In this document: positions 20,666 to 27,660 of the stretch, piece by piece
Layout of the letters: each line of letters opens with the position of its first letter
Numbering within the stretch: position 1 is the stretch's first letter
Source: Planctomycetota bacterium
GTDB lineage: Bacteria; Planctomycetota; Phycisphaerae; Phycisphaerales; UBA1924
Direction of reading: 5' to 3'
Length of the DNA stretch: 40,714 bases
Assembly: GCA_024276195.1 (NCBI GenBank)
Contig: JAJRXR010000006.1
Span: 1-40,714, forward strand
Translations under genes and position numbers: made by a program
Notes under the pieces: generated by a model
The model's input: only the letters and a program-made list of their open reading frames with translations
The model's database searches: none
What the model was told of the DNA's origin: nothing

Positions 20666-21877
20666 GTGACGCTTTCTCAGACCGAAACCCGCTTGCGCGA
20701 CACGATCGAGGCCCGGCGCGGGGCGCTGCTCGACGACCTGCGCCTGCACGTTGAGCTGCCCACGGGCGGGTTCAACAGCGCGGCGCTCGACGAGACCCGG
20801 TCGCGGTTCATTGAGCGTCTTGAGGCGCTCGGGGCGACGACCGAGCTGGTCCCGGGCGACGCCAAGCCGGACTGGCTGCCCGGAGGATCGGGCGACAACG
20901 CCCCCCCCGTGACGGCGATCTGCCGGCGACCACAGGCTGAGTCGACGCCGAAGTCGGTGCTCATCGCCGGGCACCTGGACACGGTGCATGATCCCGAGGG
21001 CGACTTCAGGGAGCTGCACATCGCCCCCGACGGCACAACCGCGACCGGCCCCGGGTGCGTGGATATGAAGGGCGGGCTCGTCATCGCGATGGCGGCCCTC
21101 GAAGCCCTCTAAGAGATCGGCGTCCCCGCCTCGTGGAGCTTCCTGATGAACTCCGACGAGGAGACGGGCAGCTTCCACTCGGCCCAGGCCATCCGCGACG
21201 AGAGCGCCAAGCACGATCTCGGCTTGGCCCTCGAGCCCGCGCTCGCTGGCGGAGAGCTTGCCGTCGAGCGGGTGGGGTCGGGTCAGTTCATGATCGAGTG
21301 CCGCGGGCGGGCGGCGCACGTGGGGCGGTCGTTCACCGAGGGCGTGTCGGCGGTGACGGCGCTCGCCGAGCGGATTGTCGCCGTCAGCGCGATGCCCGAG
21401 CCCGAGCGCGGTCGGATCCTGAGTATCGGACCCATCGAGGGTGGGGTCGCGACCAACGCGGTGCCCGATCGGGCGCGGGCCTGGGGCAACGCACGATTCC
21501 CGACGCCCGAAGCCGCCGATGAGATCGGCGCCATGCTCACTCAGCTCCAAACGCCGCCCGACGCCATGCCCCGGGCTACGGTCCGCACCATTTTCAACCG
21601 CCCGGCCAAGCCGCTGACGCCCGAGACGGAAAGGCTGGCGCTGTGCGCCCGCGCCGCAGCGGAAGACCTGGGCCAGTCGCTCCCGTTCGCCAGCACGGGC
21701 GGGGTGTGCGACGGCAACATCATGCAGGCCGCGGGGCTTCCCACGATTGACACCCTGGGCGTGCGCGGCGGGGGTCTGCACACGCCCGACGAATGGATCG
21801 AGCTGCCCAGCCTCGTGCAGCGTTGCCAGCTTCTCGCCCTGCTCATCGCCCGCCTCTGCGAGCGAGGCAGCGACTGA
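20666..21877 (+). pseudogene. M20 amidohydrolase (CPG2/ArgE-like) interrupted by in-frame TAA
   Basis: A complete M20 gene is readable in one frame except for TAA at 21110-21112, between LEAL and EIGVPASW. Before it: metal-binding AGHLDTVHD and bridging Asp in GCVDMKGG. After it: catalytic and metal glutamates in NSDEETGS, the lid motif AAHVGRSFTEGVSA and the late His in GGGLHTPDEW. All motifs are intact and codon use is unchanged across the stop, so it is either a very recent nonsense mutation or a sequence error. M20 enzymes of the carboxypeptidase G2 type release glutamate from N-acyl-glutamates, which would suit N-succinylglutamate, the product expected from the downstream astA/astD genes. 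It is followed 25 nt later by the aminotransferase, and is assumed to be part of that unit. Confidence 0.85.
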
Positions 21878-21901
21878 CCCGACCGGAACACGGAGGACAC
21901 C

Positions 21902-23368
21902 ATGCCCGCAACAACCAACGCCACAAGCAACACGACACCTCTCGGCCAGCAGCTCAGCGAGAGCCCGGTCGTCGCCCAGGCCCTCGACACGCTCATCGCG
22001 GAGGTCGAGTCCAAGAGCGCCCAGATCACCGTGCCGCGCGGTCCGGTCGATGGCATGAGCGAGACCTACGAGGCGTACATGAAGCGCGCCGCCGCGACAC
22101 GCGGCAAGGGCTTGCTCTACCCCTACATCGGCTCGGGCCTCGGCAACAGGGCGCTCGTCGAGCTGATGGACGGCTCGGTCAAGTGGGACATGATCTGCGG
22201 CATCGGCGTCAACTTCTTCGGGCACAGCGATTCCGACCTCATCCGCGCCTCGCTCCGGGCCTCGCTGGGCGACGTCACCAACCACGGCAACCTGTTGTCC
22301 AACTGGGGGCCGTACAAGTTCTCCGAGACTTTGCTGGAGCTGGCCGGGCGCAACAGCGGTCTGTCCCAGGCGTTCATCTCGCCCACGGGCGCGCTGGCCA
22401 ACGAGAACGCGCTCAAGGTCTGCTACCAGAAGCACGCACCGGCGAGCCGCGTCATCGCGTTCCAGGACTGCTTCATGGGGCGGACCGTCACCATGGCGCA
22501 GATCGGCGATTCTGCGGGCGCCCGGGTCGGGATCCCGCTGTCCACGCAGGTGGACTACATGCCGTTCTTTGATGAGGTCGAGGCCGAGGCGGTCGGGCTG
22601 GCGAAGTACATCGACGGCGCTCTCGTCCGCCTGCAGGAGTTCATCGACCGGTACCCGCGACAGCACGCGTGCTTCATCTTCGAGCTGATCCAGGGCGAGG
22701 GCGGCTTCAACACCGCCAAGCGAGACTACTTCCGGGCGCTCATGGAGCGGTGCAAGGCCAACTCCATCGCGGTCTGGGACGACGAGATCCAGACCTTTGG
22801 CAGGACTGAGAGCATGTTCGCGTACGAGGCGCTGGATCTGGGTGATCTGGTGGATGTCTTCTGCGTCGGCAAGATGACGCAGGTTTGCGCCACGCTCTTT
22901 ACCGAGGAGTACGCCCCCAAGCCCGGGCTGCTCTCGGGCACGTTTACCGGGACCGGGGCCGCGTTCGATGTTGGCAATCGGATGCTCGAGCGCCTGCGCG
23001 ATGGCGATTTCTATGGCGCCGACGGCGTCATCGCCAAGCATCGCGACGCCTTCCGCGAGCAAGTCCGGGCGCTCGCGGCGCGCCGCCCGGAGTGGTTCCC
23101 GAAGGTCGAGTCGGTCCCGGGCAAGCCGGGGGCGCTCGACATCGTGGGCGGGACCGGCGGGATGATGCGGATGACCCCGTTCGGCGGCAAGAAAGCAAAG
23201 GTCACCAAGGCGTGCCGGGCGTGCTTTGACGAGGGCGTGGTGCTGTTCTATTGCGGGCACGGGCCGTACCACCTGCGGATGCTCCCACCCTTGGGCGTGA
23301 TGAAGCTCGAGGACTGGCCCCGCGTGTTCGAGTGTGTCGAGCGGGGTTTGGCGAAGGTCGCGGGCTGA
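21902..23368 (+). CDS. class III omega-aminotransferase (lysine 6-/ornithine-type)
   Basis: 488 residues, PLP-dependent. The cofactor-binding Lys324 lies in CVGKMTQVCA, and WDDEIQTFGRT is the class III DExQTGxGR motif. The GKxTQVC pattern and a C-terminal YCGHGPYHLRMLPPL resemble L-lysine 6-aminotransferases more than classical AstC/ArgD. The enzyme should move a terminal amino group from a basic amino acid (ornithine, succinylornithine or lysine) to 2-oxoglutarate. GGAGG (21892-21896) precedes the ATG. Its position between an M20 deacylase and astA-astD suggests the AstC step: N2-succinylornithine to N-succinylglutamate semialdehyde. The substrate is inferred, not shown. Confidence 0.88.
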   Translation: MPATTNATSNTTPLGQQLSESPVVAQALDTLIAEVESKSAQITVPRGPVDGMSETYEAYMKRAAATRGKGLLYPYIGSGLGNRALVELMDGSVKWDMICGIGVNFFGHSDSDLIRASLRASLGDVTNHGNLLSNWGPYKFSETLLELAGRNSGLSQAFISPTGALANENALKVCYQKHAPASRVIAFQDCFMGRTVTMAQIGDSAGARVGIPLSTQVDYMPFFDEVEAEAVGLAKYIDGALVRLQEFIDRYPRQHACFIFELIQGEGGFNTAKRDYFRALMERCKANSIAVWDDEIQTFGRTESMFAYEALDLGDLVDVFCVGKMTQVCATLFTEEYAPKPGLLSGTFTGTGAAFDVGNRMLERLRDGDFYGADGVIAKHRDAFREQVRALAARRPEWFPKVESVPGKPGALDIVGGTGGMMRMTPFGGKKAKVTKACRACFDEGVVLFYCGHGPYHLRMLPPLGVMKLEDWPRVFECVERGLAKVAG

Positions 23369-23416
23369 CCGGGGCGAGGCGGCGATGGGCAGCGGGCGAT
23401 GACCAAGGAGAGGATC

Positions 23417-26685: not shown

Positions 26686-26688
26686 AAT
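26683..26688 (+). promoter_or_regulatory. -10-like TAGAAT, leaderless start at 26695
   Basis: TAGAAT overlaps the stop codon of the preceding gene (GATAGAAT) and ends 6 nt before the ATG at 26695. There is no Shine-Dalgarno. It implies that the ureohydrolase has its own leaderless transcript in addition to any read-through. Confidence 0.5.
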
Positions 26689-26694
26689 CATCCC

Positions 26695-27660
26695 ATGCCC
26701 AAGACCATCCTCGCCGATACTCGCCAGTTCCCCCGCTTTGCTGGTGTGCCCACGTTCTGCAGGTACCCGCTGCTCGAGCTTGTTCCGCCCGAGTCGCTCC
26801 CGCTGGACTGGGCGATCTACGGCGTCCCCTTCGACGGGGGTGTGACGTACCGCCCCGGCGCCCGCTTCGGCCCGCGCGCCATCCGCGACGCCTCGCAGTA
26901 CGTCAAACGCTACTCGATGCACCACGACCTGGACATCTGCGAGAAGCTCTCGCTGGCCGACGCGGGCGACGCGCCGGTCCAGCCCTACTCGTGCAAAGAG
27001 ACGAGCGAAGCCGTCACCGGCTTCGCCATGAACTTGGGCGACCCGAGCCGGACCAAGCTCATGGCCGTCGGCGGGGATCACTCCATCGCCTACGCCAACA
27101 TCCGCGCCACGTTCGAGCGACTCGACCGCCCCGAGGGCGGGCTGGCGCTGCTGCACTTTGATTCGCACCTCGACACCGTGGACTCGGTCTGGGGCGAGCG
27201 GTGGGGGCACGCCTCGCCGTTCATCCGCGCCATCGAGGACGGGCTGATCAACCCCAACCGCATGGTCTCCGTCGGCATCAAAGGCCCGCTCAACACCAAG
27301 GCCGACCTGGACTACGCCCGCGAGCACGGCGTGACGATCATCACTTACGACGACTACCTCCACTGCGCCTGCGACGAAACACTGCGCAACTTCGTCCACC
27401 GCCAGGGCGATCACCCGGCCTACCTCAGCTTCGACATCGACGTCGTTGACCCGGCCTTCGCCCCGGGCACGGGCACGCCCAGCGTCGGGGGCTTCACGTC
27501 CGCAGAGATTCTCACCGCCCTGCGTCAGCTCAAGGGCGCCAACATCGTCGGCGCCGACATCGTCGAGGTCCTCCCCGACCGAGATCCCGCGGGGATCACG
27601 GCGCTGCTTGCCGGGCATGTGATGTTCGAGATCCTGTGCCTGGACGCGGTATCGCGCTAG
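26695..27660 (+). CDS. ureohydrolase (arginase/agmatinase family)
   Basis: 321 residues with all manganese ligands: GGDHS (126-130), DSHLD (156-160) and SFDIDVVDP (Asp247, Asp249). The segment GERWGHASPF (168-177) resembles the agmatinase/guanidinobutyrase branch more than classical arginases, which have a SGNxHG loop. It hydrolyses a guanidino group to an amine plus urea. In context (aminotransferase, astA, astD) the likely substrate is arginine, or N-succinylarginine, giving ornithine or succinylornithine and so replacing AstB. Agmatine or 4-guanidinobutyrate remains possible. Its stop codon shares the CTAG tetranucleotide with the stop of the convergent gene. Confidence 0.9.
   Translation: MPKTILADTRQFPRFAGVPTFCRYPLLELVPPESLPLDWAIYGVPFDGGVTYRPGARFGPRAIRDASQYVKRYSMHHDLDICEKLSLADAGDAPVQPYSCKETSEAVTGFAMNLGDPSRTKLMAVGGDHSIAYANIRATFERLDRPEGGLALLHFDSHLDTVDSVWGERWGHASPFIRAIEDGLINPNRMVSVGIKGPLNTKADLDYAREHGVTIITYDDYLHCACDETLRNFVHRQGDHPAYLSFDIDVVDPAFAPGTGTPSVGGFTSAEILTALRQLKGANIVGADIVEVLPDRDPAGITALLAGHVMFEILCLDAVSR

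Follow-up and report, generated by a model that had tools for sequence, protein, structure and literature searches.

The stretch analyzed here, called the window in the following, comprises the 40,714 nucleotides of contig JAJRXR010000006.1 (positions 1 to 40,714, forward strand) from a Planctomycetota bacterium of the order Phycisphaerales (GCA_024276195.1), the assembly of which amounts to 3.04 Mb in 88 contigs (the window being contig 35) and is 91% complete. Within about 7 kb of the plus strand (20606-27660) it holds five genes which encode, in this order, an M20-family hydrolase (M20), a class III aminotransferase (AT3), the succinyltransferase AstA, the dehydrogenase AstD and a ureohydrolase, here named UreX (Table 1). 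Presence, strand and order of these genes are as described in a first-pass annotation of the window, which had interpreted them as a hybrid arginase/arginine succinyltransferase (AST) cluster with a ureohydrolase instead of AstB and an M20 enzyme instead of AstE. The gene set itself stood up to closer analysis, but that description had overlooked a stop codon in the M20 frame, the divergence of AstA and the fact that AT3 is not recognizable as an AstC.

Table 1. Features in and near the AST gene cluster of the window, with their model scores.
Feature	Position	Strand	Score
M20-family hydrolase, PRK07338 type	20606 (or 20666)-21877	+	NF005602 309.8 bits
Class III aminotransferase (AT3)	21902-23368	+	PF00202 128.5 bits
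AstA-family succinyltransferase (arginine N-succinyltransferase), divergent	23399-24694	+	PF04958 206.8 bits
AstD-family succinylglutamate-semialdehyde dehydrogenase	24725-26290	+	NF006992 457 bits; TIGR03240 445.5 bits
UreX, ureohydrolase of the guanidino-acid hydrolase branch	26695-27660	+	PF00491 262.3 bits
Small open reading frame between AstD and UreX, membrane-protein-like, C-terminal zinc-ribbon motif (by eye)	26365-26685		
tRNA-Arg, anticodon tct	32804-32879		

AstA exceeds the PF04958 cut-off of 29.4 bits and matches the structure 1yle (E=2.8e-20); with 148.7 bits on TIGR03243 (cut-off 284) it remains under the NCBIfam equivalog and subfamily cut-offs. For AstD, NF006992 and TIGR03240 rank top, both below their cut-offs of 514 and 579.3 bits, respectively, with a third model at 275.8 bits. 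AT3 reaches 66.8 bits on the AstC model TIGR03246 (cut-off 610), a comparison in which AT3 alone was scored and a genome-wide search for AstC/ArgD was not made. NF005602 is the best-scoring model for M20, its score being read across the stop and lying under the cut-off of 357 bits, while an intact relative (L035) scores 339.5 bits.

The source genome contains no match to AstB (PF04996), a search in which the control recovered the proteins of Escherichia coli and Caulobacter. For comparison, 298 genomes of the class were sampled, 76 of which bear AstA. AstE was not found in any of these 76 genomes by PF04952, nor by TIGR03242 above its cut-off; partial, weak matches of 20-42 bits to the latter model occur in 11 of them, including the source genome (20.2 bits). 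Both replacements proposed in the first-pass annotation, that of AstB by a ureohydrolase and that of AstE by M20, are in accordance with these searches. Relatives of M20 (E <= 1e-25) are present in 67 of the 76 AstA genomes when the source genome is counted (66 of the 75 others) and in 46 of the 48 AstA genomes of the three families that hold UreX (f1, f4 and f5). Since they occur there together with AstB or UreX alike, M20 is the natural desuccinylase candidate in both kinds of genomes and likely substitutes for AstE as N-succinylglutamate desuccinylase in both. The two exceptions, G137 (L069) and G297 (L072), one of which carries AstB and the other UreX, lack an M20 relative; their fetched AST locus contains AT3 and AstA but no AstD.

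UreX orthologs were delimited as a set of 29 matches with 343-745 bits and 53-100% identity, the next best match having 156.6 bits and 34%. They are thus found in 29 of the 298 genomes, all of which carry AstA and none of which carries AstB. AstB is present in 45 of the 76 AstA genomes, none of them with UreX, and the two were never found together in any of the 76. Neither of them occurs in two AstA genomes, G131 (98% complete) and G163 (58% complete). Restricted to f1, f4 and f5, the 48 AstA genomes are divided into 29 with UreX and 19 with AstB, with no genome having both and no genome having neither. Such complementarity is stronger evidence than the first-pass annotation had at its disposal. 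For the 76 genomes, this exclusion corresponds to a Fisher p-value of 5.6e-19, which is uncorrected for kinship. A p-value for the co-occurrence of UreX and AstA over all 298 genomes was dropped as evidence, as it is inflated by kinship.

Kinship was addressed with trees of AstA and AstD, which took in 73 and 65 of the 76 AstA genomes, respectively. In the AstD tree the UreX/AstB label switches 5 times, 4 of these switches being forced by starred branches, and in the AstA tree it switches 8 times, 5 of them forced, i.e., at least four to five switches between UreX and AstB are forced by the trees. When independent pairs of genomes differing in UreX were drawn in 200 random pairings from each tree, AstB had the opposite state in 4/4 pairs of 194 pairings (AstD tree) and in 5/5 pairs of 188 pairings (AstA tree); the remaining pairings of both trees contain one pair without a difference in AstB, and a change in the same direction never occurs. 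These four to five independent pairs are too few for a sign test to reach 0.05. Switches are also found within genera, namely in g2, where G258 carries UreX and G003, G013, G032, G046 and G273 carry AstB, and in g42 (G228 against G197). UreX is an additional PF00491 member in G258, because each of the five AstB species of g2 has two PF00491 genes and G258 has three. In a sample of the phylum, only 10 of 392 genomes, all from f1, f4 or f5, contain a protein with at least 380 bits to UreX, the next match having 245.6 bits and 45% identity. The UreX proteins form one group when compared with 13 chosen outside relatives, and among the named records of the best 80 of 507 UreX-relative loci, the nearest are nearly all metagenome-assembled genomes labelled Phycisphaerales, Phycisphaerae or Planctomycetota.

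The linkage of these genes is also found in other genomes. In locus counts, which omit three AstA genomes (G144, G168 and G173), M20, AT3, AstA and AstD lie on one strand of one fetched locus in 31 of the 48 AstA genomes of f1, f4 and f5 (21/29 with UreX, 10/19 with AstB); AT3 is part of the AST locus in 45/48, and AstD is missing from the fetched locus in 5/48. Of the 29 UreX genomes of these families, 16 have UreX inside the AST locus and in the same orientation, whereas AstB is in the AST locus in none of their 19 AstB genomes and in 15 of 23 fetched genomes of other families. The cluster arrangement recurs far beyond chance, and the neighborhood conservation that the first-pass annotation had suggested to check was found for the four genes as well as for UreX. 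Additionally, the best 80 of 507 UreX-relative loci include 21 planctomycete UreX loci, 9 of which have AstD or AstA adjoining UreX. The scan of UreX loci comprised 51 loci, of which L113 (G149) is not UreX according to phmmer (146 bits); its AST count of 24 omits L153 and L162, where AstD fragments lie at contig edges.

In the window (26695-29350), UreX is followed by a DUF6115-like gene on the opposite strand and a TilS-like gene, the former being below its model cut-off and the latter named by eye, and the same order is present in L107, L114, L116, L119, L147, L148, L151 and L156. These two genes follow UreX even where the AST genes lie elsewhere, and no arginine genes were seen among the recurrent neighbors of UreX outside the AST locus. 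In G291 (with AstB; L058) and G258 (with UreX elsewhere; L047) the AST genes abut the DUF6115-like and TilS-like genes with no UreX in between, and in G185, G189, G137 and G297 one or both of these genes lie inside the AST locus. These arrangements suggest that the genes originally stood in the order AST-UreX-DUF6115-TilS and became separated afterwards.

The metal ligands, the shuttle residue His172 and Glu291 are conserved in all 29 UreX proteins. By profile, the closest solved relatives are the guanidinopropionase GpuA, proclavaminate amidinohydrolase (PAH) and the guanidinobutyrase GbuA, though a comparison of the folds of such structures is no test of substrate. PAH (1gq6) belongs to the same ureohydrolase branch and is 37% identical to UreX over the structural alignment, but it serves antibiotic biosynthesis in Streptomyces. 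The substrate of PAH is derived from arginine, with an acylated alpha nitrogen. PAH is described as releasing urea from guanidino-proclavaminic acid (excerpt of PMC11836541), and one peptide arginase type of PF00491 acts on arginine residues inside peptides (excerpt of PMC10028609). With GbuA and GpuA, UreX has in common the branch by profile, an N-terminal PRFxG motif and a basic residue where GbuA has R72, but its identity to them is 32% and 40%, respectively, its loop A and loop B residues are different and its partner is the AST locus. The basic residue in question is K71 (K in 28 and R in 1 of 29), and its counterpart in GbuA, R72, belongs to the neighboring subunit and could contact the substrate carboxylate (excerpt of PMC9772407); PAH has His at this position of the same alignment.

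Gene content, the exclusion between UreX and AstB, the shared locus and the intact active-site residues of UreX are observed features, as is the lack of AstB, AstE and known urea-degrading enzymes at the search sensitivity applied; in our view it is likely that UreX fills the slot of AstB by converting N2-succinylarginine to N2-succinylornithine and urea. All substrates and reactions of the pathway, as well as the order of its steps, we infer from sequence. AstA would succinylate arginine to N2-succinylarginine, the guanidino group of which would be cleaved by UreX, as a binuclear-metal ureohydrolase, to yield N2-succinylornithine and urea; AT3, in the role of AstC, would act as N-succinylornithine transaminase and form N-succinylglutamate semialdehyde, AstD would oxidize the latter to N-succinylglutamate, and M20 would finally release glutamate and succinate. 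Such a scheme would share the AstA and AstD families, a class III aminotransferase, the succinylated intermediates and, presumably, the products glutamate and succinate with the canonical AST pathway (AstABCDE/Aru). The canonical pathway contains AstB, which forms N2-succinylornithine, two ammonia and CO2, whereas the cluster in the window has a ureohydrolase that would form urea and, in place of the M14-type AstE, M20; the canonical aminotransferase belongs to the AstC family, whose cut-off AT3 of the window does not approach. Taken as a whole, we lean toward the view that UreX has a new activity, that of an N2-succinylarginine amidinohydrolase, and that a ureogenic AST pathway has been swapped with the AstB-dependent one several times within the Phycisphaerales, in bacteria which, having no known urea-degrading enzymes, would have to release the urea.

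Concerning the fate of the urea, urease alpha was found in 4 of the 76 AstA genomes, none of them with UreX. Urea carboxylase exceeds its cut-off in a single genome of the 76 (G109, an AstB genome) and in no UreX genome. Matches below the cut-off to parts of the urea carboxylase model are present in all 76, mainly to its N-terminal third, and among the matches listed, at least some UreX genomes have them to the middle part as well. With neither urease nor a urea carboxylase above the cut-off in any UreX genome, these bacteria would seem to release urea as an end product instead of using it.

The first-pass annotation had left two orders of steps open, the first of which has arginine converted to ornithine and urea by UreX before AstA succinylates the ornithine. 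It has become the less likely of the two, and we regard it as improbable. With free arginine as the substrate of UreX, ornithine would have to be the substrate of AstA in the UreX genomes, and this order, too, predicts that AstB can be lost from UreX genomes. Acceptance of ornithine is reported for AstA of E. coli and P. aeruginosa, and its use for AstO of A. baumannii (excerpt of PMC12375414), and variant G105 of the human guanidino-acid hydrolase shows weak arginine activity (excerpt of PMC9772407). However, UreX and AstB genomes cannot be told apart by any AstA column, the best single column reaching an accuracy of 0.85 (controls: 0.84 for AT3, 0.91 for AstD), and AstA of G258 is on average 76% identical to AstA of its AstB-bearing congeners. 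Since no AstA column tracks the switch, UreX acting after AstA, as AstB does, is indirectly favored, and AstA probably keeps arginine as substrate in UreX genomes. An AstA that accepts arginine would, in a genome without AstB, yield a dead-end product if UreX did not act on it. UreX itself resembles arginase (RocF) in superfamily fold, metal ligands and urea as product, but remains with 64.2 bits far under the cut-off of the arginase model TIGR01229 (227.6). At the position of Asp183, which we take to have a role in arginase, L or I is aligned in 29/29 UreX proteins. Likewise missing is Asn130 of arginase loop A, which recognizes arginine (excerpt of PMC8125230) and is replaced by V in 25, A in 2, I in 1 and L in 1 of the 29. 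Together with the AstA columns and the retained basic residue K71, these residues disfavor UreX acting as an arginase ahead of AstA, and the order with succinylarginine as the compound that UreX would convert fits better. AstA columns 165 and 242, considered as markers of an arginine-to-ornithine switch, were rejected as they fail to separate the two groups.

A different objection would be that UreX only happens to adjoin AST genes and works as a guanidinobutyrase, guanidinopropionase or agmatinase, which is in accordance with its nearest solved relatives as well as with the location of 13 of the 29 UreX genes outside the AST locus. NCBIfam would label it agmatinase, its 186.5 bits on TIGR01230 being over the cut-off of 174.3. 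The source genome has two further PF00491 genes, L121 with 188.7 bits on the same model and L122, which is HutG-like with a score below the HutG cut-off; because the scores of UreX and its paralog L121 are nearly equal, the agmatinase model does not tell them apart and its score alone cannot separate UreX from an agmatinase role. We nevertheless hold this explanation to be highly improbable, as it does not account for the facts that UreX and AstB never occur together, that one or the other is found in 48/48 genomes and that UreX shares the AST locus in 16/29. This distribution argues against an agmatinase role better than the model scores do, and the label agmatinase for UreX is possibly misleading.

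Several points limit the proposal that UreX replaces AstB in a functional pathway. G131 possesses AST genes and neither AstB nor UreX, and many of the sampled genomes are fragmented into many contigs and incomplete. The window itself has an in-frame TAA at 21110-21112 within M20, and the end branch of its AstA in the AstA tree measures 2.77 at a median of 0.24. Furthermore, a His predicted to be catalytic in AstA (excerpt of PMC12375414), which was placed by alignment through 1yle, is missing in 47 of the 48 AstA proteins of f1, f4 and f5, in UreX and AstB genomes alike. The likely position of this His is residue 256 of the window AstA, where His is found in f8, f10 and most of f3 and mostly Gly in f1, f4 and f5. 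As for G131, its loci L083 and L120 hold M20, AT3, AstA and AstD, which would perhaps fit a use of ornithine only. Away from the AST locus, G119 (L039) and G282 (L055) each have an additional gene that resembles AstA very distantly (54-58 bits to PF04958).

The TAA and the long AstA branch could also mean that the pathway is valid in the relatives and decaying in the window genome, with M20 as a pseudogene and AstA drifting. This is compatible with the replacement of AstB by UreX, and we consider it doubtful without dismissing it. The window AstA has a mean identity of 35% to its family, compared with family means of 48-58% for 27 other members, and departs from 8 of 50 columns that are at least 97% conserved, whereas AT3 and AstD are normal, with departures from 1 of 76 and 2 of 111 such columns, respectively. 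The remaining M20 frame is conserved, with 67% identity to that of G185 over query residues 2-396, and a lone stop codon in sequence assembled from a metagenome could be erroneous. The copy in the window may therefore be defective or changed by horizontal transfer, the alternative being a mistake of assembly at the stop. The greater divergence of AstA relative to its operon neighbors is possibly due to horizontal acquisition or fast evolution. No internal stop was shown in M20 relatives, the TGA in the end regions of G144 and G067 lying outside the coordinate check. TGA codons marked in the M20 matches from five further genomes were discarded as internal stops; in G225, G270 and G127 the TGA is the end of the frame.

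In the open-access literature, judged by titles and the beginnings of abstracts of the best matches listed, no description of a succinylarginine-cleaving ureohydrolase and no account of an arginine succinyltransferase pathway in Phycisphaerae was found. The excerpt of the GapMind publication (PMC9007349) treats AST genes and the succinylation of ornithine, and a replacement of AstB by a ureohydrolase is absent from it. An AST variant in which a ureohydrolase takes the place of AstB and M20 that of AstE is probably undescribed, and so, probably, is the enzyme activity predicted for UreX.

If this interpretation is true, the key nitrogen-releasing step of a textbook catabolic route would have a second, non-homologous solution, with a different nitrogen economy in which urea is lost rather than ammonia gained. 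A function would be assigned to a group of proteins that NCBI models would name agmatinase, and it would be explained how genomes without AstB could still run the AST route. Sister species that differ in having AstB or UreX would represent natural test pairs, and planctomycetes releasing urea could feed ureolytic neighbors.

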